Shown in pieces: positions 6,526 through 53,260 of a stretch of DNA of 64,000 bases (within the stretch, counting starts at the first letter, position 1; the number at the start of each line of letters is the position of its first letter). The DNA comes from Bolinopsis microptera (lineage: Eukaryota; Ctenophora; Tentaculata; Lobata; Bolinopsidae). The stretch is taken from positions 19,120,494-19,184,493 of the forward strand of contig NC_087082.1 of assembly GCF_026151205.1 (NCBI RefSeq), given 5' to 3'. The notes beneath the pieces were generated by a model, which was not told the DNA's origin, made no database searches, and saw nothing but the letters and a program-made list of their open reading frames with translations. Made by a program: the position numbers and the translations under genes.

Positions 6526-6801
6526 GTGAGTGCTGCTTGCATACATAGTGGCCGTGAGTGTCAGGGCTTTTGGAGAGTGGGACGTCATGAGAAGTCGGAT
6601 AAAGAAATATATTGCAGAGATAGAGGCCGTGAGTATGAGAGATCTAGGCGATTGGGAAGTCATGAGAAGTCGGACAAAGAGATATATTGCAGAGAAATAG
6701 GCTGTGTTAGTGAGAGATCAGGGCGAATGGGAAGACGGCGAGAATTTAAGAGATGCCGTGAAGGTAAAAGCAAAAGAAAAAAACTTTATAAAAGGGCTTA
6801 A
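6526..6801 (+). other. Repeat-associated 91-codon ORF, function unknown
   Basis: This ORF encodes a very basic, Arg/Lys/Glu-rich peptide made of about three imperfect repeats around HEKSDKEIYCR. The same ORF lies in the other arm at 12414-12689 (minus) with only about two residue differences, while the noisy copy at about 910-1190 is frame-shifted. Preservation between the arms may simply reflect recent duplication. No domain is recognised, and the tandem structure of about 72-75 bp in the DNA could itself explain the open frame. I would not call it a gene. Confidence 0.25.
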
Positions 6802-6841: not shown

Positions 6842-7896
6842 ACGTACGTTTTTGGTACGTTTTGGTGAGTTTGGCAGGGCGTGCTCAGGACAACTGCATC
6901 GAGTGCGTCCTCCTCCAGCTCAGCATTGAGTTATCGTTTGTCGGAGTGTAGCCCGGAACCGGTGGCGTGTCTGGGTACTGTTCCATGGAACTTCCTAGAC
7001 CAACTTTGAAACTGTCTAGCAATGTGGTACTCCGGAGCTCCGATGGGAGCACGTTGAAGAGCTGAGCTGCTCTAACTCTATAGCTGTTGTCGTAATCTGT
7101 TCTTACCGACAATTGTGCGCTTTTGTTCATGGCTGGGATCTCTGCCTTAATACCATGCCTTTGATGAGACTTGAACTCGAAACCCGTATCGTTCGGAGCA
7201 TGTTCATTAAGAATTTTCCATACATGAATAATAGAATAACATTAACGCTCTCTCCGCCTCTGAAGAGACATCAACTTAAGCTTCTTCAACCTGTCCCAGT
7301 ACTGGAGATCACGGCAGCCAGATATCTTTATAGTAAAGGATCTTTGTACAGTCTCCAGCTTTTGTATCTCTGTGACTTTTGCAGGGTTTCAGACTGGACA
7401 GCAGTACTCTAGCTTGGAGCGAACCATGCTTTTGTATAAAGTCAGCATGACTAATTGTGACCGGTCTCTAAAAGCACTCAAAGTCAAAGCCGCCATTTTT
7501 CTAGCTCCTTGAACTGTCTTCTCAATGTGAGGACCCCATGATCTACTGCTGCTAACATACGCTCCAACGTCTCTGACAGTTTCCTGTGGTGATATTGCGT
7601 GTCCTTTTGGTGTAGTATACTCAACAGTTTCTGGGTAGAACAGGAGCTCTCTTAGAGCTTTTGATCCATTCAGGGGGTAGTTTACAACCTCAAACTTCTG
7701 TTCGTGTAGCTCCATGTTGTTAACACGTGACCACTCGATGACTATGTTGAGATCATCTTGCAGTAACTCTACACTACTCATTCCTTGGATAGCCCCAATC
7801 AGCTTTGTGTCGTCTGCAAAGCTGAATCCGTTACTATAGCTAATACTGTTCAACAGATCCTTGATGTACAGAATAAACAGGATCGGTCCTAGGACT
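6842..7896 (-). mobile_element. 5'-truncated CR1/Jockey-like LINE, broken ORF2 C-terminus
   Basis: Read on the minus strand, the fragment begins inside the reverse-transcriptase domain with LGPILFILYIKDLLN, followed by the catalytic block FADDTKL and a C-terminal region with EYCCPV, YWDRLKKLKL and a PDTPP-type tail. The frame is broken just after EYCCPV (near 7390) and again at a TAA near 7240; open pieces are 7389-7853 and 6885-7130. The 3' end carries short ACGTACG and ACGTAC words. The right arm of the inverted repeat has the uninterrupted target near 12368-12374, which fixes both ends. Family placement rests on these motifs only. Confidence 0.85.
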
Positions 7897-8625
7897 GTTT
7901 TAAGTTTCTAACTCACATCAGAAAGAGAACAAAAGCCCTGTGCTTCAAAATCATTCCTAGTTTATCTAGGCTAATGATCATCAATCAACATTCAACACTT
8001 CTGCTTTTTGCCAAAAGCGAATAAAAGGCCCCTTCTGTGTCCACTGTCTTGACGATTCTCAGTATGATCATACATGAGTCTATATAGTTTGACGTTATGT
8101 GTTTAACGCACAAATCCCCAGTCTCACAGAGTTACGGGCTCCAGCAATCGCTCACAAACCAACTAGACCTCTCGAAATGAAAAAAATGAGAACAAGGTTA
8201 CGATAAAAACAGATTATCAAAATTGATTGGAAATAGAAGGATACTATTCCAAGATTATAGCAACGAAGTTCATGTCGATGATCTTTAGCTTGCTCATTTG
8301 TATTTACATCATTTGTACAAGACTAGATGGTAGCCATGTTCTGTGTCCTAAACCTAACTTTAGTGTGCATGTTATCTATTTTGTTGGTCTCAGTTTAAAC
8401 CTGAAAGCCATTGAATATGTTTGCCACTGCTTCTCAGCTGATCATAAATAATTTAAAATAGGGTTCAGTGTTCTGACCATTTGTGTATGTAGATGAAGCA
8501 AGGTCAGGAACCCAGCACGGTGAAGGATTAGGCCGGTTATCTAGCAAAGATCTCTGTCACTATACTTTTGTTGCTCAGTATCATTAGTATCATCATTGAA
8601 GATTGTGCATACACAACTTTATTAA

Positions 8626-12413: not shown

Positions 12414-12689
12414 TTAAGCCCTTTTATAAAGTTTTTTTCTTTTGCTTTTACTTTCACGGCATCTCTTAAATTCTCGCCGTCTTCCCATTTGCCCTGATCT
12501 CTCACTAACACAGCCTATTTCTCTGCAATATATCTCTTTGTCCGACTTCTCATGACTTCCCAATCGCCTAGATCTCTCATACTCACGGCCTCTATCTCTG
12601 CAATATATTTCTTTATCCGACTTCTCATGACGTCCCACTCTCCAAAAGCCCTGACACTCACGGCCACTATGTATGCAAGCAGCACTCAC
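12414..12689 (-). other. Second copy of the repeat-associated 91-codon ORF
   Basis: Inverted-arm partner of the ORF at 6526-6801, intact and differing at about two residues. The same caution applies: it is probably a feature of the duplicated DNA, not a gene. Confidence 0.25.
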
Positions 12690-20503: not shown

Positions 20504-21738
20504 CAGAGTTCCTGAGTAGTATAATAATTATACGGATACCTAGAGGTCACGTGTTAAGTTGTTAGTCACGTGTTAAGTTCTTAATCACGTGTTAAGTTGT
20601 AAGTCACGTGTTAAGTTGTTAGTCACGTGTTAAGTTGTTAGTCACGTGTTAAGTTGTTAGTCACGTGTTAAGTTGTAAGTCACGTGTTAAGTTGTAAGTC
20701 ACGTGTTAAGTTGTTAGTCACGTGTTAAGTTGTTAGTCACGTGTTAAGTTGTTAGTCACGTGTTAAGTTGTTAGTCAATGTTTCCGAATAAGTTACTCAG
20801 TTTGTAGAAAGTAATCTCGAGTGTAAGATTATGTTTCATTGATTTCTTAAAAAGGGAACCATGAAGTAATCAGTGTAACTTAAAAACTCAACAAAGAGAG
20901 CGACCGATTTCATTCTCGGTATCATTTTGCATTTGCGGACGGTTATTCACATTAATATCATTTTCTTTTGTTTGGGAAAGAGAGACACTGGCAGCGGTCC
21001 AATCTTCCCATGATTATAGGTTTTGGTCAAATTTAATAACGTATATATATATATACATAATATATAATCAGAGTTCCTGAGTAGTATAATAATTATACGG
21101 ATACCTAGAGGTCACGTGTTAAGTTGTTAGTCACGTGTTAAGTTGTTAATCACGTGTTAAGTTGTTAATCACGTGTTAAGTTGTTAGTCACGTGTTAAGT
21201 TGTTAGTCACGTGTTAAGTTGTTAGTCACGTGTTAAGTTGTTAGTCACGTGTTAAGTTGTTAGTCACGTGTTAAGTTGTTAATCACGTGTTAAGTTGTTA
21301 GTCACGTGTTAAGTTGTTAGTCACGTGTTAAGTTGTTAGTCACGTGTTAAGTTGTTAGTCACGTGTTAAGTTGTTAGTCACGTGTTAAGTTAATAGTCAT
21401 GTGTTAAGTTGTTAGTCACGTGTTACCTAGAGGTCAAATTACCAATATATTCAATGTTTCCGAATAAGTTACTCAGTTTGTAGAAAGTAATCTCGAGTGT
21501 AAGATTATGTTTCATTGATTTCTTAAAAAGGGAACCATGAAGTAATCAGTGTAACTTAAAAGCTCAACAAAGAGAGCGACCGATTTCATTCTCGGTATCA
21601 TTTTGCATTTGCGGACGGTTATTCACATTAATATCATTTTCTTATGTTTGGGAAAGAGAGACACTGGCAGCGGTCCAATCTTCCCATGATTATAGGTTTT
21701 GGTCAAATTTAATAACGTATATATATATATACATAATA
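20504..21738. repeat. Tandem segmental duplication carrying two 19-bp arrays
   Basis: A segment (20504-21066) is repeated at 21067-21738. Each copy has the same left flank (AATCAGAGTTCCTGAGTAG), a minisatellite of GTCACGTGTTAAGTTGTTA and the same right flank, including GACACTGGCAGCGGTCC and a TA repeat. The arrays differ in length (about 20548-20776 and 21111-21425). The flanks are nearly identical, so the duplication is recent, with array size changing faster. Each unit contains the palindrome CACGTG. Confidence 0.92.
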
Positions 21739-36900: not shown

Positions 36901-39900
36901 ACATTCCTCGCATATCGAGACCAGTCTCTCCTTCTCCATCGGACCTGGATATCCCTCAACATGAATAAAGTGTAAACTATATTTTCTAAACATCTGCTAT
37001 AAACTGTTAAGAAGCATGTTTTATCATGTCGAGCTGTTAAACAAGTAAACTAAAGCTTAGATTCTACAAAGCACATTTAGAGTTTATGCACATGTGAAAC
37101 TGAATTTGAGTCCCACATATCAGAATATGCGTGATTAAATTACTCAGAGTTAAATAGAACATGCTAACCAATGATGGCCTCCACTTTATTAATGGTTTCC
37201 AGCTCTCTCAAACTGAATACTCTCTCCTCTGAAGTTGTTGGCTCTGGTTTCTCTGTTTCAGGCTCCTTTTCTGGCTCTTCTCCGTGTAACATTATTTCTG
37301 CTAACTTTTTTACACACTGCGTCTTTTTACGTACAACTGGTTCTGAAATAATGTTAAATTTCTCAAGATTATTGTCAAAATATGATGTGAAGTTAAGTTT
37401 GGTGAAGAAAATAATATCATGTATCTTAATACTAGTACTACGATATACATTATTATATTATGTAGCTAGTAATAAACTTACTAGGAGGAGACACATGGTC
37501 CTTTGTCACGTGGTCCTCAGTCACGTGGCCCTGAGTCACGTGGTCCTCATAGACAACAACATAAGGCTCTAGGAGATGAGGAGAGATGACATGTTGGTTG
37601 GGTGATGTGATCTCCTGATCAGGTTGTGGTGATGGTAGGGGTAGCTCTTTATCACATCTCAGTGCTGTTAGCTTCTTTGCTTCAGTGTGAGCACTCTGGG
37701 GTAAGAAGTTGTTAAAATAAAACTGAAATATTAAGGTATTAAGAAATTACCAGGAACTAACAACACAGGTTAGTATGACGGTATTGTGGTCTAACTAAAG
37801 GATTTAATCAATTATTTAACATGAAGTATACTGTTAGTTACCCAATATTCTGCTGAATTGTGATATGAAACTTTCAACAACGTCTTTAGCTTCCTTCGGC
37901 ATATCTCCACCAAGCTGAATACTTCAGACACATATCTTATCATTGTAGGCTCACTGGAGACCCTCCCCAGATCTCTCTCCATTTCTATTTCCTCATCAGA
38001 ATCCTCCAACTCCGGAATGTCTATATCGTAACCAGATAAATCCACAGGAATGTCTCTGTCAGGCCTATCATTGGACACAACATTCCTCATGCTAGCGTTA
38101 TTGCATCCCTGGGGTACCCCTGTTTTTATATATTTCTCATTATCCCAAGTGGACAGCTTCTTAACACTATCCTCTCTCAGTTTATGAATGTCGATTACCA
38201 CACTGAAATCCTCTTCTATTTCTGTGGATTGCTGTTTTTCCAATTTATCTAGCAACTCATCCTCCATCTCCCTGGCTGCTATGTCTTCTAGCCACACACT
38301 CATGTCTTGGTCCCAGTCCTCATTTTCGTCAGACTCCGCATTTCTTAAACCCCAAGTAGTGTCATCTTGTTTTAGACAACTAAACTGAGATATATTTTCC
38401 TTGGATTTTTTTCCCGACATCCCTAAATCGCCAGATCCCGAGTCCCATACTGCCCTTGGAACTGGGGATTGAGTTCTTACTTTAGGGCATTTACTATTGT
38501 TATTGTATTCCCTATTCTTAACACTTGTACCCTCATTTTGAGGGGTACCACGTTTTTCAGAACCCTTATCTCGATCTGCTGGGTCGTCAGAAGAGTCTGA
38601 TAAAATATACGGGACAAGAGAACCCTCAGTAGATTTCCCATTCTTTCCTCTTTTATCATTGTTCTTATTCCTATCATTGTTCTTATTCTTATCATTCTTA
38701 TCATTCTTATCATTCCTATCATTCTTCACAGTGGTGAAAGGAACGTATCCTGCAGCATCGCTGTTCTCTCCTGCACAGTGGGAATGCTTTAGTTTTGACA
38801 TGTAGGCTGGCCCAATGACTTTTTCTACAGTTGGATTTTTCTCGTATCGTTTGAGTGCAGCCACCAACTGACCCTTGTTTAGACCATGTTTAGATTTCCT
38901 GAAAAAAGAAACTGGAATGTATACAGTCATACCTCGAGGGAGGAGAAATCCAAAGCAAAAAAAACGAGTAGAAAGAGTAAAGCCACTGATATTTTAAGAC
39001 TATTCCTGTTTTCACTACATAAAAAGCTCTTTTAAATAAAGCATTGGCACATTGCCAACTTGAACGATATACACCAAACAGTATCGCAAGCGCTAACCTG
39101 CAGTAATTAGTAAAGAGCTAACCTGTAGTAATTAGTAAAGAGCTAACCTGTAGTAATTAGTAAAAAGCTAACCTGTAGTAATTAGTAAATAGCTAACCTG
39201 TAGTAATTAGTAAAGAGCTAACCTGTAGTAATTAGTAATGAGCTAACCTGTAGTAATTAGTAAAGGGCTAACCTGTAGTAATTAGTAAAGAGCTAACCTG
39301 TAGTAATTAGTAAAGAGCTAACCTGTAGTAATTAGTAAAGAGCTAACCTGTAGTAATTAGTAAAGAGCTAACCTGTAGTAATTAGTAAAGAGCTAACCTG
39401 TAGTAATTATTAAAGAGCTAACCTGTAGTAATTAGTAAAGAGCTAACCTGTACTAATTAGTAAAGAGCTAACCTGTAGTAATTATTAAAGAGCTAACCTG
39501 TAGTAATTATTAAAGAGCTAACCTGTAGTAATTAGTAAAGAGCTAACCTGTACTAATTAGTAAAGAGCTAACCTGTAGTAATTATTAAAGAGCTAACCTG
39601 TAGTAATTAGTAAAGAGCTAACCTGTAGTAATTAGTAAAGAGCTAACCTGTAGTAATTAGTAAAGAGCTAACCTGTAGTAATTATTAAAGAGCTAACCTG
39701 TAGTAATTAGTAAAGGGCTAACCTGTAGTAATTAGTAAAGGGCTAACCTGTAGTAATTAGTAAAGAGCTAACCTGTAGTAATTAGTAAAGAGCTAACCTG
39801 TAGTAATTAGTAAAGGGCTAACCTGTAGTAACTAGTAAAGAGCTAACCTGTAGTAATTATTAAAGAGCTAACCTGTAGTAATTAGTAAAGGGCTAACCTG

Positions 39901-42900
39901 TAGTAATTAGTAAAGGGCTAACCTGTAGTAATTAGTAAAGAGCTAACCTGTAGTAATTATTAAAGAGCTAACCTGTAGTAATTAGTAAAGAGCTAACCTG
40001 TAGTAATTAGTAAAGAGCTAACCTGTAGTAATTATTAAAGAGCTAACCTGTAGTAATTAGTAAAGGGCTAACCTGTAGTAATTAGTAAAGGGCTAACCTG
40101 TAGTAATTAGTAAAGAGCTAACCTGTAGTAATCATTAAAGAGCTAACCTGTAGTAATTAGTAAAGAGCTAACCTGTAGTAACTAGTAAAGAGCTAACCTG
40201 TAGTAACTAGTAAAGAGCTAACCTGTAGTAATTAGTAAAGGGCTAACCTGTAGTAATTAGTAAAGGGCTAACCTGTAGTAATTAGTAAAGAGCTAACCTG
40301 TAGTAATTAGTAAAGGGCTAACCTGTAGTAATTAGTAAAGGGCTAACCTGTAGTAATTAGTAAAGAGCTAACCTGTAGTAATTAGTAAAGAGCTAACCTG
40401 TAGTAATTAGTAAAGGGCTAACCTGTAGTAATTAGTAAAGAGCTAACCTGTAGTAACTAGTAAAGAGCTAACCTGTAGTAATTAGTAAAGGGCTAACCTG
40501 TAGTAATTAGTAAAGAGCTAACCTGTAGTAACTAGTAAAGAGCTAACCTGTAGTAATTAGTAAAGAGCTAACCTGTAGTAATTAGTAAATAGCTAACCTG
40601 TAGTTATTAGTAAATAGCTAACCTGTAGTTATTAGTAAAGAGCTAACCTGTAGTAATTAGTAAAGGGCTAACCTGTAGTAATTAGTAAAGGGCTAACCTG
40701 AAGTAATTAGTAAAGAGCTAACCTGTAGTAATTAGTAAAGAGCTAACCTGTAGTAATTAGTAAAGAGCTAACCTGTAGTAATTAGTAAAGAGCTAACCTG
40801 TAGTAATTATTAAAGAGCTAACCTGTAGTAATTAGTAAAGGGCTAACCTGTAGTAATTAGTAAAGGGCTAACCTGTAGTAATTAGTAAAGAGCTAACCTG
40901 TAGTAATTAGTAAAGAGCTAACCTGTAGTAATTAGTAAAGGGCTAACCTGTAGTAATTAGTAAAGAGCTAACCTGTAGTAACTAGTAAAGAGCTAACCTG
41001 TAGTAACTAGTAAAGAGCTAACCTGTAGTAATTAGTAAAGGGCTAACCTGTAGTAATTAGTAAAGGGCTAACCTGTAGTAATTAGTAAAGAGCTAACCTG
41101 TAGTAATTAGTAAAGGGCTAACCTGTAGTAATTAGTAAAGGGCTAACCTGTAGTAATTAGTAAAGAGCTAACCTGTAGTAATTAGTAAAGAGCTAACCTG
41201 TAGTAATTAGTAAAGGGCTAACCTGTAGTAATTAGTAATGAGCTAACCTGTAGTAACTAGTAAAGAGCTAACCTGTAGTAATTAGTAAAGGGCTAACCTG
41301 TAGTAATTAGTAAAGAGCTAACCTGTAGTAACTAGTAAAGAGCTAACCTGTAGTAATTAGTAAAGAGCTAACCTGTAGTAATTAGTAAATAGCTAACCTG
41401 TAGTTATTAGTAAATAGCTAACCTGTAGTTATTAGTAAAGAGCTAACCTGTAGTAATTAGTAAAGAGCTAACCTGTAGTAATTAGTAAAGAGCTAACCTG
41501 TAGTAATTAGTAAAGGGCTAACATGTAGCAATTAGTAAAGCGCTAACCTGAACAGTTGATTAATTTTGAACTTCCATTCTGTGGGAGGCTCAATGAAATA
41601 GCAGTTGTACCCTTGCTCTACTCCCTGCAGGGTCATATTAGCATCATCCCTCATCGAATTACATTATAACTACCAATACTATTAATGCTTAATACTAGTA
41701 GACGTGCATCCTGGGTTTTGACAGGATATGCCAGCTTGATATGTATTGTAAGTAAAGTAAGTAAGTTATGTGTACTTAGTAATACTTAATGTACAATAAT
41801 TACTACTTTATTAAAAAGTTGTTCTACTTTATTATTTATTTTTATTAGAATCTGTCTTCACTGAGTCTATTCAGAAACAATCAGAAATTTTAATGAAAGA
41901 ACTATCAAATCATGAGACTCAATAACACTACACGAATCCACCAGATTACTTTACTAAACTTACAGCAATACAAACTTTACTTTACTACTTTACTAAACTT
42001 ACTGCAATACAAACTTTACTTTACTACTTTACTAAACTTACAGCAATACAAACTTTACTTTACTACTTTATTAAACTTACAGCAATACAAACTTTAATAT
42101 ACTACTTTACTAAACTTACAGCAATACAAACTTTACTTTACTACTTTACTTAACTTACAGCAATACAAACTTTACTTTACTACTTTACTTAACTTACAGC
42201 AATACAAACTTTACTTTACTACTTTACTAAACTTACAGCAATACAAACTTTAATATACTACTTTACTTAACTTACAGCAATACAAACTTTACTTTACTAC
42301 TTTACTTAACTTACAGCAATACAAACTTTACTTTACTACTTTACTAAACTTACAGCAATTATACAAACTTTACTTTACTACTTTACTAAACTTACAGCAA
42401 TACAACCTTTAATATACTACTTTACTAAACTTACAGCAATACAAACTTTACTTTACTACTTTACTTAACTTACAGCAATACAAACTTTACTTTACTACTT
42501 TACTAAACTTACAGCAATTATACAAACTTTAATATACTACTTTACTAAACTTACAGCACTACAAACTTTACTTTACTACTTTACTAAACTTACAGCAATA
42601 CAAATTTTACTTTACTACTTTACTAAACTTACAGCAATACAAACTTTAATATACTACTTTACTAAACTTACAGCAATACAAACTTTACTTTACTACTTTA
42701 CTAAACTTACAGCAATACAAACTTTACTTTACTACTTTACTAAACTTACAGCAATACAAACTTTAATATACTACTTTACTAAACTTACAGCAATACAAAC
42801 TTTACTTTACTACTTTACTAAACTTACAGCAATACAAACTTTACTTTACTACTTTACTAAACTTACAGCAATACAAACTTTACTTTACTACTTTACTTAA

Positions 42901-45900
42901 CTTACAGCAATACAAACTTTACTTTACTACTTTACTAAACTTACAGCAATACAAACTTTACTTTACTACTTTACTAAACTTACAGCAATACAAACTTTAA
43001 TATACTACTTTACTAAACTTACAGCAATACAAACTTTACTTTACTACTTTACTAAACTTACAGCAATACAAACTTTACTTTACTACTTTACTTAACTTAC
43101 AGCAATAACATAAGGTCTCATCTCCCAGAACTGAGTGTTAGTGTTGTCCACTATTACTGGAGACAATCCTTCAGACAACGCTCCCTCCACTAATTGGAAT
43201 GTGTGATAGTTAATAGTTCAGTTAATAAATTAGTATCTGGGAATCCATTAGTGAACAGTGATATGCTATTATAAAGAAGAAACCTATCAAAATACTACAG
43301 TAGTATGTCTGTACCACGTTGTTGATTCCACGTGTGAGCTATCTGTAGATCAGCATGAACAAACCGGTACCTGGGCGATGGTTCAATAAGTTAATGAGAT
43401 ATGAACAAAATACATGTTCAGTTATTGTTATTCTCCTTATAAATCTAAACAAGATTTTAAAGCTGAACATATTTGAAACCACACGCTGAAGCCAATGTTG
43501 AAACAGTAAAATATGATTTTAGTGTTTGCAAAAGTCTAAAAAAACTGGTAGACTTACTCATTAGCTTCATTAAGCATAAAAAAGTCATCAGAGGAGAAAA
43601 TGTCTCCACTACCAAGTTCACTGATTATCTTTCTGAAATGGTAAAAGCGTTGATCATATCTTTTGTGAAGTATCTGGTGTCAAATTACAATGTACATTGT
43701 ACAATTGCTATAACTATGATGAAATGAAGGCTAGCAATATCCCTTCTAAAATACTACTACAGTAAAACCCCGATTTATCGCCCCTCTGATTTACCGCAGC
43801 CACCTCTTTCCCCCAAATATAGGGCTTAACATGACGTATAATGTAAAGAAACAAAGCCCCGATTTACCGCAGATGTTTTCTTTCTCCCAAACTCTGCGGT
43901 AGATCGGGGTTTTACTGTACTGCTTGGTATGCTATTTAAGTATATACTTCGCATAAGTCGTCTTTCCACTGCCTGACAATCCTCTCATGATGTACAGAGC
44001 TTTTTTGTCGTGATATCCTGATGAAGATAAAGTTACTGAGAGCTACAAATACAGCTTGAACTGATTACCAGTAGTGTCTATGATATGTGAAATGATCTGG
44101 TATCAAACTTTATCCCCAAAATCTACAATAATTTCATAGACAATATTATAATTATATTATATATGGTTCAAACCTTCAAAAGAATAAGAAATTTAATTTA
44201 AAATAATTAGTCAACCGGAAGGGAGCAAGTTCCAAATACCTGGTATTTTTACTTTATCTGGATTAAGTCGCCTAGTATCTCTAACCCTGTTTGACACTGT
44301 AAAGTTTGTCCCTTGAGCCGTAAGATTTGATTTTTGACTCCAGGTCCCTCTATTATTCTGTACTGTCCTGGTTGGCAGAGAGTTACTATAGTTACACTAC
44401 TAGTTACCATAGTTACACTACTAAACAGGTATATTATTCTGTACTGTCCTTGTGTTGAGTTACTATAGTTACACTACTAGTTACCATAGTTACACTACTA
44501 GTTACCATAGTTACACTACTAAACAGGTATATTATTCTGTACTGTCCTTGTGTTGAGTTGTCTGCAATAAAATTGATGCGATATCTTAATCTCTCTATAT
44601 TATATACTAATTAGTTTAGTTAGCAAGATTCAAATTATAATTTTCTTTAATTAATTTTACACTGTGTGTTATTAAGCCAACACAAATTTTAATTGAATTT
44701 TGTTCTTTGCATTCCACTTTTAATTACCGATCAGGAGTAGGTTGAGAATTTTGAACTCCCATGCTGTCTTGAAGTTGGCGCAGTATCTGAATGGCTTCTC
44801 CTCCTGGGGATGCAAATTATAAGTCATTCCATATCTCTTAATTAACAGAAAAATTGACTAGCTAGCTGTTTCCATTTTGTATTAGATCTGTCTTATTTTA
44901 ACTGCATTTTATTGACATACCATTTCCATGCATGTCATGAAACACCCCTGAAACAACATTTTCTTCAAGTGTGCCTTGAAAGATGTCAATAAGCTCCCTC
45001 AAGTTAGGATTGAACGCCATCTCTAAAGGATAAAGTTATGGTAAATGAGAAAAGACAATTTTTTGAGAAAAGACAATTCTATTATTTATAACCAATTAAA
45101 TATGCTCGCTATACACTTAACTTTTAGATACCGCATATATATGTACAAATTAACTCATTTAAATACCAAATACCAATAATAAATAAAATATAAGCATGAA
45201 GAATGAAGAGGTCCAAAACCAACCCAAGCATAATACCAGATTAAAACCAACATTGAACACATTGTCATCGGAAGCTGCAAGCTTATTATCGTATGATTAA
45301 ACTGATATTTAATAAATAATTAAAAGAACCAATTTTAAAGTTGCTATACTGAAGCCTTTAGCTCCAAAAATACACCCATTATGCTCACTTAAAAACAACT
45401 CTAAATCAGTAGGCGGGCACAAAAAAGCACTACTAGCAATTGTGTCCTTTACCCTCCTACATAATTTGAACATTTTTGTGGCTAACTCATTGAACAACAT
45501 TTGAATTAAAATGTGTCTAGTATTAAAAGATTCAGTAAGTTTTTTTTTTCATGTACGCTGTTCACTGTAGTAAGTAAATGCAAACCAAACTTTTTCGATC
45601 AGCTGCGCGCCGAACCAGTGTTGTACTAGGTAAAAATTGTGTATATTTTGTTCATTTTTGAGTGTAAATTAATTTATAAATTTATCACAAATTATTTTAT
45701 TATAATATAACCACTTATGTGAAATGTTTATTTCGACATTAAATATAAATTGATTGTGGGTATAAAATAAAATTTGTTTTACTATTAATGCACCACACCG
45801 CTACTTCCACTGCACTAATAGTTATACAATAAATTCTACAATCCTAATTTTGTATCGTGATGGAGACCGGTGCCCATAAAAAACATTTACTAGGTTGCCG

Positions 45901-49199: not shown

Positions 49200-52100
49200 C
49201 CATTTTAGAATAAAGGAAAACAGGTTATTAAACGGTTTTTAAATTTTGCCCCTTTACCCTCCCACAGAGGGAGAAAAATCCCCCTGAAAAAAATTTTTTT
49301 AAAATGAAAAAAAATTTTTGGGGGGGAAAAAAAATGGGCATTTGGAAAAAGGGGGAAAAAGGCATTTTGTGGGTTTTTTAAAACCCAAATCTTTAAAACC
49401 AATGCAAAAATTTAAATTGTTTTGGTTTTAAAAATTTTTCCTTTTTTCTTATTATTTTTTTAAATTGGCAATTTTTAGGTTTTAAAATTAAAAATTTTTT
49501 TTAAAAAAATTATGGGTAAAAAAGTTAAAAGGGGAAAATAGTGTTTTTATTTTAAAAATTTTAAATTGTTTTAAATTTTTCCCCTCTTTAATATAGTATT
49601 TTTAAATTTTTTGTTGGGGCGAGGTTTTTCAATAAAAAATTTTTAAAGTTTTTGGCGGAAAAAAACATTTTTTAAAAATTAAAGGGGGATTTTTAAAAGT
49701 TTTTTATTTTTAAAAAAAATTGGGCATGGTTAAAAACCCTTTTTAAATTTTAAAAATTTTCAAATTTACCCATTGGGGCTTTCATCAAAATTTTAAGAAA
49801 AAGTTTTTTTAAAAAAAGGGGTTTTTGGAAAATCCCTTTGCAAAACGGAAAATTTTGCCCCCCAAAGGAAACTTGTTTTAAAAAAAAAGAGAAAAGTTGG
49901 ATAAGGTTAATTTAGGGATTTAAAAAAACCAAAAAATTTTTTTTTTTTAAAAAAATTTTACAAAAAATTTAAACCCTTTAAAAAGTTTTGAACGGATTTT
50001 TTAAAACAAGAACTTTGGGGAAAAAATAGGAATTTTTAAAAAAAAGGTTTTTTGTTGAAAAAAAATTTTCCTTTTTCCCCCCTTGTCGAAAAAAATTTTT
50101 AAAAACGAGGGGCCAGAAGGAAAAAAACACTCACAGGAAAAAAATTTGTTTTATTGCGGGACTTTTTTTTTTTCAGGGTTTTGTTCAAAAAAAAAGGGGA
50201 ATATCTTTAAGTAAGGGGCCCCCCCAAGGGGAAAACTGGGGTAAAAAGAGAAAAATTTTTTTTTAAAGAGAAAAAGGGAAAAATTTTAAAAGAGAGGGGA
50301 ATGGGGGGGGGGTTTTTTAAGGAGAAAAAAGGGGGGAAAAAAGTAAAAGAAAAGAAATTTAATGAAAAAAAAAAAAAAATTTGAGGGGGAGAGAACAAAA
50401 GAGAATTTTGAGGGAACCCCAAAAGTGGGGAAATTTTTAAAAAAAAAAAAAGATGAAAAAAATTTTAAGAGAATTAAAAGGGAAGAAAATTTTTTAAGAA
50501 AAGGGGAAAAAAAAGAAAGGGGGGGGGGAAAAGGTTTTTTGAGGGGGGGGGGGGGGTTTTAATTTTACTTGGAAAAAGGGTAGAGAAGGAAAGGGGGGGA
50601 TGTGAAAAAAATTTAAAAAAATTTTTTTTTAAAAAAGGGGGGGGATTGGGGGGGGAGGCCCCGGAAAATTTTTTAGATTTTTTGAAGGAAAAGAAAGAAA
50701 AGAGAAAAGATTTTTTTGGGAAAAAAAGAAGAATTTTGAAAGATTTTTGGGAAAATTTTGGTTAAAGAAAAGAGGGGACCCGTAACAAAATAGCCGCCGG
50801 GGGGGTTTTTTAAAAGAGAATTTTTAAAAGAGGGGAAGGGGGGGCCCCAAAAAACCCGAAAGGAGAGGGGAGAAAAGGAAAAAAGTGAAAAAAAAAACCG
50901 AGGGAAAAAAGAGGAAAAAAATTTTTAAAAAAAAAAGGGAGGGGGGAGAAAAGTTTGAAGCTAGGGGGAAGGAGGTGAGGGGGGGGGGGGGAGAAGGAAA
51001 GGGTTTGGGGGGAAAAAGTGAAGGGTAGAAGGAGGGGGGAGAGGAGGGAGAAGTGAGGGGGGGCGAAGGAGGGGATTTGGGGGGAAATTTTTTAAAAAAG
51101 AGGAAGAAACCGAGGGGGTTTAAAGGGGGAAAGAAAATAGGAGATGAAAACCCCCGAGAGGTTTTAAATTTTTTTGGGGGGGGGGGGGAAAAAATTTAAA
51201 GAAAAAAAAAAAAAAAAAGGAAAAAAAAAGAGAAATTTTGGAAAAATTTTTAGGAAAAGGAGAAAAGGAAAAATTTAAAGGGGAAAAAAAGGGGGGGGTT
51301 TGGAAAGGGAAAGAGAAGGGAAAAAGGGGGGGTTTTTAGAAAAAAAAAGAAAAAAGGAGGGAGGGCGAAAAGTTGAGGGGAGGTAATGGGGGTTTGGGGG
51401 GAAAAGAAAGAGATTTTTAAAAAGGGAAAGTGGGGTGGAGGAAGGGAAAAAGGAAAAAAAAAAATTGAGGATGTTGAAAAAAGGTACCCTTTAAGAAAGG
51501 AAAGGCAAAATTTAAAGGAATAAAAAAATAGGAAAAAGGGTTTTTGGGGGGAAAATTTAAAAAAGGGGGAGGGGAAAAAAAATTGCGGGGGGAAATTTTT
51601 TGGGAATTTTTGGGGGAGGGGAAAAAAAATTTTTTTTTTTGGGGGGAAAAAAAGGGTTTTGGGAGGCCAATTTTTTGGGGGGTTTTGGAAAAAAGAGCGT
51701 AAAAGGGTTTTTTGAAAAATAAATTTTAAAATTTTTGGTTTTTTTTGGGGAAAAAGAAAAGAGAAGGGGAAGGGGAAGGGTTTTAAAAGGGGGGAAAAGG
51801 TGGAAAGGAGTTGTATGGACGGGGGCAAAAGGAGGAAAAGGGGGAAAGGGGGGGAAAAAGGGGGAAAGGGGATTTAAGAGGGGGAAAATTTTTTTGGGGG
51901 AAGGGGGGGCAAGGAAAAAATTTTTTTGAGAAAGGGGGGGGGAAAAGGAAAAAAAAAAGGGGGGGAGGAGGGGGAAAAAAAATTAAAATTTTTCCGGGAA
52001 AAAGGGAGGAAGGGGAAGGGGGGAAAGGGGAGGGAAAAAAAAGAAAAAAGAAAAAAAAAATTTTTTTGGTTTTTTAGGAAAAGGGGAAAAAAAAAAAGCA

Positions 52101-53260
52101 AAAGGGAAAAAGGGGGAAGGGGAAAAACCCTTTTTTTAAAAAAGGAGGAGAAAAGGAGGAAGGAAAAAAAAGGGGGGGGGAAAAAAAAAATTTTTAAAGG
52201 GGGAAAGGAAAGGGGAAAGGGGGAAAGGGGAAAAAGGGGAAATTTTTGGATTTTAAAGAAGAAAAATGGAAAAAGGGGATTTGAGAAAAAAAAGGGGGGG
52301 TTTGATGGGAGCCCGGGGGGGGGAAAAGAAAAGGAGGGGGGAGGGGGGGGAAACCCCCAAAAGGGGGGGGGAGGGTTTTTTAAAAAGGAAAAAAGGGAGG
52401 GGGGAGAGAGGAGTTGACTGGGGGGGGGGAAATTTTAAAGAAAAGGAAAAAGGAAGAAAGGGGGGGGGGAAAAAGAGAGAGGAGAGAGAGGGAGGGGGGA
52501 GAGGGGGGGAGGAGGGGGGGAGGAGGAGAGGGGGGGGGAAAAGAGGAGGGGGGGAGAGGGGGAGAGAGGGAGGAGGAGGGGGGGGGGGGGGGAGAGGAGG
52601 AGGGAGAAAAAGGAAGGGGAGAGGAGGGGAAGAGGAGAGAGGGGGGGGAGGAGGAGAGAGGAGAGGAGAGGGGAGAGGGAGGGGGGGGAAAGGAGGAGAA
52701 GAGAGGATGGGGGGGAAAAGGGGGAAAGAAAAAGAGGGGAGGGGGGGAGGGGAAAGGGGAGGGAAGGGGGGAGAGAGAGGGAGGGAGAGGAGTGGAGAGG
52801 GGGAGAGAGAGGGGGGGAGAGGGAGAAAAGGGGAAAGGGGGAGGAGGAGGGGGGAGGAGAGAGGAGAAAAGGGGGGGAAGGAAAAAGGGGGAAGGGGGAG
52901 GGGAGAGGGGGAGAGAGGGGGGGAAAAAAAGGGGCAAAATTTATGGGCTCCGGCGGCCCCGGGGCGAAAGTTAGAGTAAGAGGGGGAAGCGTCCCGGCGG
53001 GAAGCAGGAGCAGCATGGCGCAGAGCGGTTTTTCCTTTATTTTTGGGGGGGGGCCCCATTAAATTTTTTTGGTTTTTGGCCAAAAATTTTCCCCAAAAAA
53101 TTTTTTAAAAAAAAAATTATTTAATTTTTTAAATTTGGGTTTTTAAAAATTTTTTTTTTTTTTTAAAAAATTTTTTTTGGGCCAATTTTCGGGTCAAAAT
53201 TTGGGGTTTAAAACAAAATTTTTTTTTTTTTTGCCTTTTTAATTTTTTTTTAATCCATCC
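49200..53260. other. Homopolymer-stretched, largely all-purine low-quality sequence
   Basis: From about 49205 the sequence is made of runs of A, T and G with very few C. From about 50200 to 52935 the plus strand is almost entirely A and G. Every ORF here encodes Gly/Lys/Arg/Glu or Pro/Ser/Phe low-complexity peptides. A short GC-rich island (52943-53027) with ordinary base composition sits at the end of the purine block. I think a real polypurine repeat or ordinary sequence was distorted during consensus building. No genes are called. Confidence 0.8.

Follow-up and report, generated by a model that had tools for sequence, protein, structure and literature searches.

Does a minisatellite that starts exactly at a splice donor need a mechanism that recognises donors, or can it have arrived there by chance? 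The question is raised by the 64,000-nucleotide stretch of DNA analysed here (the window; contig NC_087082.1 of the ctenophore Bolinopsis microptera, positions 19,120,494 to 19,184,493), in which two neighbouring introns open with long tandem arrays, of 39-bp and 25-bp units, that repeat the end of the preceding exon together with its donor. The layout of the gene resembles that of N4BP2, and we call it N4BP2-like on the strength of this likeness. Our analysis indicates that both arrays are most probably mirages, as passages of PMC3087553 call the minisatellite-like tandem duplications of exon-intron boundaries found in amphioxus: random short duplications that happened to include a boundary and then grew, without any anchor at the donor. 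The structure is of a kind already described; new are its occurrence in a ctenophore genome, the size of the arrays and the several further cases reported below.

Structure of the two donor-spanning arrays

The position of the arrays can be stated exactly because the borders of exons C and D rest on more than the GT-AG rule, being fixed by reading frame and homology. Exons B, B2, C, D and E (Table 1), when joined, give a single open frame, KIISELGSGDIFSSDDFF...DNTNTQFWEMRPYVIA/GVEQGYNCYFIEPPTEWKFKINQLF(R)KSKHGLNKGQ, and the joined exons with the preceding P-loop piece match Pfam AAA_33 over residues 3-110 (E 3.3e-14; 53.8 bits, cut-off 27), so that a P-loop kinase domain of the AAA_33 type is present. 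The single candidate stretch tried for the CUE and Smr domains gave no Pfam match. Exons B, B2, C and D are short (56-89 nt), and the locus was found in the genome as a single copy only.

Exon C ends in ATTGCT|GTAAGTT and exon D in CAG|GTTAGC, and the last exon bases belong to the repeated unit in both cases: 6-7 bases, (T)ATTGCT, in the 39-bp array and 3 bases, CAG, in the 25-bp array. The first units open at 43100 and 41547, which are the first bases of the two introns. Tandem Repeats Finder (TRF), the unit lists and the exon frame agree on this register, which is read directly from the DNA as is the gene model, and they confirm the proposal that both arrays open together with their introns and carry the donor in every unit.

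In the 39-bp array 29 full units, 27 with 39 bp and two with 42 bp, precede a partial of 17 bp, which corrects the regular series of about 30 units first supposed. Its repeated stretch is (T)ATTGCT|GTAAGTTWAGTAAAGTA followed by a spacer; the donor GTAAGTT is found in 30 of 30 copies, and all units but one (GCA) end in GCT, as the exon does. For the 25-bp array the earlier estimate of about 98 units was right: 98 units are followed by a 10-bp partial, the most frequent unit being GTTAGCTCTTTACTAATTACTACAG, and GTTAGC stands as the donor in 99 of 99 copies. Its first unit and its terminal partial have GTTAGCGCTT in common, and the inner units mostly read GTTAGCTC or GTTAGCCC; such a difference is expected after tandem duplication across the boundary, since the final partial copy is then the start of the ordinary intron, and at both arrays the terminal partial is seen to run directly into non-repeat intron sequence. 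In the 25-bp array about 20 unit types form a string that comes back with slight changes, a sign of block-wise copying.

In sequence the two arrays are unrelated to each other, and both stand in donor register; this observation of the original prediction holds, and other donors in the genome show the same. The arrays do not fill their introns, as had been stated: the introns behind exons C and D measure 1,476 bp and 2,649 bp, and 322 and 189 bp of ordinary intron are left before the acceptors, both of which lie outside the arrays. Because two long arrays are involved, a chance origin of the sequence itself is excluded, while chance in their position remains.

Table 1. Features of the N4BP2-like gene and its two arrays, in window positions
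Feature	Position	Strand	Basis or remark
Minisatellite 1, 39 bp, donor-spanning	41947..43107	(-)	TRF: 29.6 copies, 94% matches
Minisatellite 2, 25 bp, donor-spanning	39088..41550	(-)	TRF: 98.5 copies, 96% matches
True 5' splice junction (T)ATTGCT|GTAAGTT, opening the series of repeated junctions	43094..43107	(-)	sequence
Non-repeat remainder of first intron, 322 bp, acceptor CCCTGCAG	41625..41946	(-)	sequence
Non-repeat remainder of second intron, 189 bp, acceptor TTTTTTCAG	38899..39087	(-)	sequence
Exon B	43558..43632	(-)	open, splice-consistent frame
Exon B2	43315..43370	(-)	open, splice-consistent frame
Exon C	43101..43189	(-)	frame and splice consensus; Pfam AAA_33 on joined exons
Exon D	41548..41624	(-)	frame; Pfam AAA_33 on joined exons
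Exon E region, frame continues KSKHGLNKGQ...	37812..38898	(-)	5' border 38898; open frame

The reading frame also bears on which copy of the donor would give a protein. According to the frame analysis, use of an inner donor would lead to a stop after LALY behind exon D and after VS behind exon C, and an in-frame stop lies already inside the first unit of both arrays. One pre-mRNA would therefore carry 30 and 99 near-identical donors, of which the outermost alone gives an open frame. That there are dozens of decoy donors, which the original prediction called unusual, is true as a fact, but structures of this sort are already known as mirages.

Array positions relative to splice junctions

Array positions were compared with chance in a neutral sample of 37 arrays, found through four motifs unrelated to splicing and read in their flanks. 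GATTACA gave 11 arrays among the matches listed, all 11 read; TGAATGG gave 11 in a complete search, 10 of them read; CATCGTT gave 12 among the matches listed, of which 9 were read and 3 omitted as copies; and TCCATGA gave 7 among the matches listed, all 7 read. Most of the sampled arrays lie on scaffolds C1 to C6. The array at C8:10939k was left out as irregular, and those at C1:25567k, C5:9580k and C6:1348k as copies, having the same unit on the same scaffold and the opposite strand. By eye, 18 of the 37 arrays have a recognisable exon within about 400 nt and 18 have none; the remaining one, C6:12933k, resembles a proline-rich coding repeat and was kept separate.

A junction is spanned or touched by 4-5 of the 18 arrays near an exon, and both kinds of junction are concerned. 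Two donors are involved: the array at C13:2435k spans the donor of an exon without a Pfam match, and that at C1:4053k starts at the donor of a SPARC_Ca_bdg exon. Acceptors are spanned at C1:447k (Ldl_recept_a) and C5:250k (5_nucleotid), and perhaps at C4:14423k, where the array either spans the acceptor of an exon without a Pfam match or stops about 27 nt before it. Five more arrays lie within 14 nt of a junction, three on the donor side (C2:16404k at +12, weak BTB; C5:9527k at +8, VIT; C6:1458k at +8, XPG_N) and two on the acceptor side (C6:430k, 3 nt before, with a Med14 match just below the cut-off; C4:803k, about 10-14 nt before, EF-hand). Another three are some 15-50 nt away (C1:299k, C5:6500k, C4:1547k), and the last five are farther off. 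Outside the count of the sample, further acceptor-spanning arrays were met near C3:20882k and C4:803k, by exons that match RH_dom and EF-hand.

As a null model we let a duplication of U bases fall anywhere in an intron with R non-repeat bases, in which case the probability of spanning either junction is 2(U-1)/(R+U-1); the unit lengths of the 18 arrays used in it are partly approximate. Under this model 5.0 of the 18 arrays are expected to span a junction, and 4-5 were observed. Arrays within 14 nt that do not span number 5 against 2.8 expected (P 0.13), and those at or near a junction together number at least 9 (P 0.36). The proposed common mechanism anchored at donors is not borne out by these contacts, which occur close to the random rate and affect acceptors also; donor-specific attraction finds no support in the neutral sample. 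For the window itself, the chance that both arrays span a donor is 0.106 x 0.113, or about 1.2% for one given pair, which is not negligible, the genome being so rich in arrays.

Two loci met in this survey are noted here. The EF-hand gene at C4:802850-804170 has three successive arrays beside junctions: the first spans an acceptor, the second stops some 10-14 nt short of the acceptor that comes next, and the third starts about 10 nt after the donor that follows. At C1:447330-448675 a 25-bp acceptor-spanning array stands between two exons of LDL-receptor class A type; three of its units make 75 nt free of stops in one frame, so that the array could be read through.

Donor-motif searches and copy-number differences

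Searches with donor motifs give high match counts. GGTAAGT three times with gaps of 12-42 bases gave 5,205 matches, against 45 for the reversed motif, and ACAGGTAAGT twice gave 214 against 0, the reversed motif being the sole control of this 10-letter motif. The apparent 100-fold enrichment of donor arrays was dropped, since the counts for 7-letter motifs with no link to splicing lie anywhere between 45 and several thousand: GATTACA and its reversal gave 3,404 and 2,679, CATCGTT 144 and 1,411, and TCCATGA 181 and 4,907. A contiguous 50-kb stretch of C2 holds four small arrays only (period at least 8, at least 3 copies) and did not serve as a test.

The flanks of eight donor-motif arrays were read, and four of these span the donor that follows an open exon: C4:3730k, C10:1535k, C10:17038k and C1:761k, the last with a copy at 36k and with the searched motif on the strand opposite to the donor. 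None of these four exons has a Pfam match. The flank of a fifth array, near C1:1291k, contains a 65-bp array in which the end of an LMF1 exon is repeated (LMF1_C, E 1.7e-28). Several candidates were not counted as donor-spanning: C8:17904k, where no exon was seen; C1:914k and its copy at 7.5k, where the exon is doubtful; the 14-bp array at C1:1291356, which adjoins an acceptor; and C1:3114k. At C1:913600-914370 the 40-bp units resemble an acceptor, an 11-nt exon and a donor (TTTTTTAG TGGGGCGGTGG GTAAGTT). At C10:17037541-17038542 the 27-bp donor-spanning units are mostly open in the exon frame and repeat GKCCQCDST, with a stop in one visible variant unit.

Differences in copy number are seen directly at two other arrays. 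The donor-spanning arrays at C1:36k and 761k have 36.0 and 25.0 units and agree at 198 of 200 bases on the exon side; of those at C6:1348k and 1458k, which both start 8 nt behind the donor of the same XPG_N exon, the first has 7 units and the second about 38, its middle part being seen as motif matches only. Arrays present twice on one scaffold were noted at C1:7.5k/914k, C1:36k/761k, C1:25281k/25567k, C5:9527k/9580k and C6:1348k/1458k. The members of a pair are mostly opposite in orientation, those at 36k and 761k being in the same one, and flanks were compared for some pairs. Such pairs represent either uncollapsed haplotypes or duplications in the assembly.

Origin of the arrays and alternative explanations

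From these data the following origin can be proposed. Two short tandem duplications would by chance have taken in the boundaries of exons C and D, one each, and unequal exchange or slippage may then have raised the donors to 30 and 99 copies. Such duplications could have been nearly neutral, if the spliceosome pairs sites across short exons and takes the copy adjacent to the exon; copies on the intron side would go unused, or transcripts made with them would be unproductive and lost. An anchor at the donor is not needed, because the array positions in the sample fit random short duplications in introns with about 120-320 non-repeat bases, and because acceptor-spanning arrays occur too. As a mutational pattern, the arrays look ordinary.

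Several points weigh against this explanation. The exon calls were made by eye by one reader, and 7 of the 18 exons have a Pfam match above the cut-off, 2 a weak one and 6 none, 3 being without a Pfam test. The values of R come from five introns (122, 125, 187, 189 and 322), four of them in the window gene; with R = 322 there is a nominally significant excess at or near junctions (P 0.015), and with R = 400 a stronger one (P 0.004). Some modest extra attraction to junctions is therefore possible, the more so as few arrays were sampled and their exons were recognised by eye. A purely neutral array, moreover, need not keep its donor hexamer invariant as the 25-bp array does, and that the first donor is the one used is deduced from the reading frame.

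The strongest competing idea is that minisatellites are seeded at 5' splice sites themselves, by transcription-coupled slippage, R-loops or template switching. The two arrays in neighbouring introns with the same register speak for such a birth, together with the five further donor-spanning arrays in or beside donor-motif arrays, the one in the neutral sample and the three neutral-sample arrays that start 8-12 nt behind donors. However, searches with donor motifs select such arrays by design, the neutral sample has two donors beside two to three acceptors, close to the random rate, and the 5,205 matches of GGTAAGT against 45 are no evidence, since control motifs vary as widely; we consider an origin anchored at donors unlikely. 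Alternatively, the copied donors may be functional and maintained by selection, either because they bind U1 or, in the 25-bp array, because they act in recursive splicing (with zero-length exons). The units of that array read TACTAAT...CTACAG|GTTAGC, 97 of the 98 end in G and so give AG|GT, and recursive sites would shorten a long intron stepwise; besides, GTTAGC and GTAAGTT are invariant in all their copies. Outside the donor we counted 14 variant types in the 25-bp array (98 units) and 8 in the 39-bp array (27 units), and none in the donor, which corresponds to P ~0.01-0.02 and 0.2 when variants are treated as independent events. This invariance is weakly significant, and homogenisation breaks the independence and can by itself yield invariance. 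Any duplication across CAG|GT automatically yields AG|GT units, GTTAGC is not a strong donor, and in the neutral array at C1:4053k the later visible copies have AT in place of the donor GT. Selection for arrays that keep splicing tolerant, which the original prediction had offered as an alternative, is not shown, invariant donor bases being the most that can be brought forward for it, and functional donors appear quite improbable.

Inner donors might also be used in alternative splicing and add residues encoded by the repeat. The precedent is the minisatellite of human IFI6 (6-16), in which, according to a passage of PMC4526556 citing Turri 1995, repeat units at an exon end serve as multiple splice donors and isoforms differ. 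The mostly open 27-bp units at C10:17038k, whose inner donors could add residues in the same way, agree with such a use. In the window arrays, unlike IFI6, where downstream units make isoforms, the inner donors would by frame lead to stops within the first unit, only the outermost donor would be productive and no residues could be added; 25, moreover, is not a multiple of 3. Splicing of this kind is highly improbable here. Nor do we give much weight to an artefact of assembly by collapsed or inflated repeats, for which the length differences between assembly copies at two other loci and the several arrays found twice per scaffold, partly inverted, might be cited: many unit variants in non-random order, including the recurring string of about 20 types, and flanks that run smoothly into the exons make it extremely improbable, and copy number is at most uncertain.

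The mirage origin can be extended into a bolder proposal, in which the exon governs splice choice in this lineage so strongly that identical intron-side sites, as many as a hundred of them, are ignored, boundary duplications are neutral genome-wide and copied donors stay invariant through U1 binding or recursive splicing. We regard this as unlikely; if true, the arrays would amount to an experiment on exon definition already set up in nature, and would hold raw material for new introns and exons. The window arrays and the acceptor-spanning ones would allow a direct measurement, by long-read RNA, of the preference for the exon-side copy.

Comparison with known systems

Passages of PMC3087553 and PMC3902484 report mirages at 5' and 3' boundaries, with length differences between haplotypes, many units carrying AG/GT signals, and splicing that is regular nevertheless. 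The genes concerned are Adh3 and globins (PMC3087553) and, in lancelets, PGBD5, Adh and TnC (PMC3902484), and the units given in the part of PMC3087553 that treats them measure 10-72 bp in Adh3 and about 150-160 bp in globins. The window units resemble mirages in that they span an exon-intron boundary (6-7 and 3 exon bases plus donor) and have lengths within the described range. Both types of boundary are affected in this genome, the window showing the 5' type only and the acceptor type occurring at C1:447k, C5:250k and near C3:20882k and C4:803k. The mirage was reportedly first described by Canestro in 2002. As regards length, copy number varies here at C1:36k/761k and C6:1348k/1458k, and of the window locus one copy was found. 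Differences are also present: against the 3-6 units of the amphioxus globin mirage there are 30 and 99 donor copies, in a ctenophore genome of which a small sample was covered. If the ctenophore source holds, mirages are not peculiar to cephalochordates, amphioxus being the source of the reports in the passages of PMC3087553 and PMC3902484. Among the 10 of 17 papers listed by a literature search, none has a title on boundary-spanning repeats in ctenophores, which does not prove that no such paper exists.

Intron gain by tandem genomic duplication of AG|GT, an idea treated in a passage of PMC3087553, is similar in that an AG|GT stretch is duplicated and the 25-bp unit has GT at its start and AG at its end, but behind each window array an intron with its own acceptor continues. 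The arrays also share features with birth between short direct repeats, as seen in GTTAGCGCTT of the first unit and terminal partial in the 25-bp array and in the 17-bp partial that ends the 39-bp array. Such birth is a general model for minisatellites.

Other repeats in the window

Further repeats were observed away from the gene. Tandem repeats of 75 bp at 6537-6734 and 12481-12678 have consensus units that are near reverse complements of each other and form an inverted pair about 6 kb apart; between them lies an open reading frame (ORF) at 7392-7907 (-) that by eye is reverse transcriptase-like. A strongly purine-biased low-complexity stretch at 49200-53100, with GC skew up to 0.79 and many runs of A and G, is possibly an artefact of sequencing or assembly. 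The two arrays at 20546-20777 and 21111-21425 have the same 19-bp unit, GTCACGTGTTAAGTTGTTA, and a common left flank, and from their sequence this pair would be a local duplication of an array.

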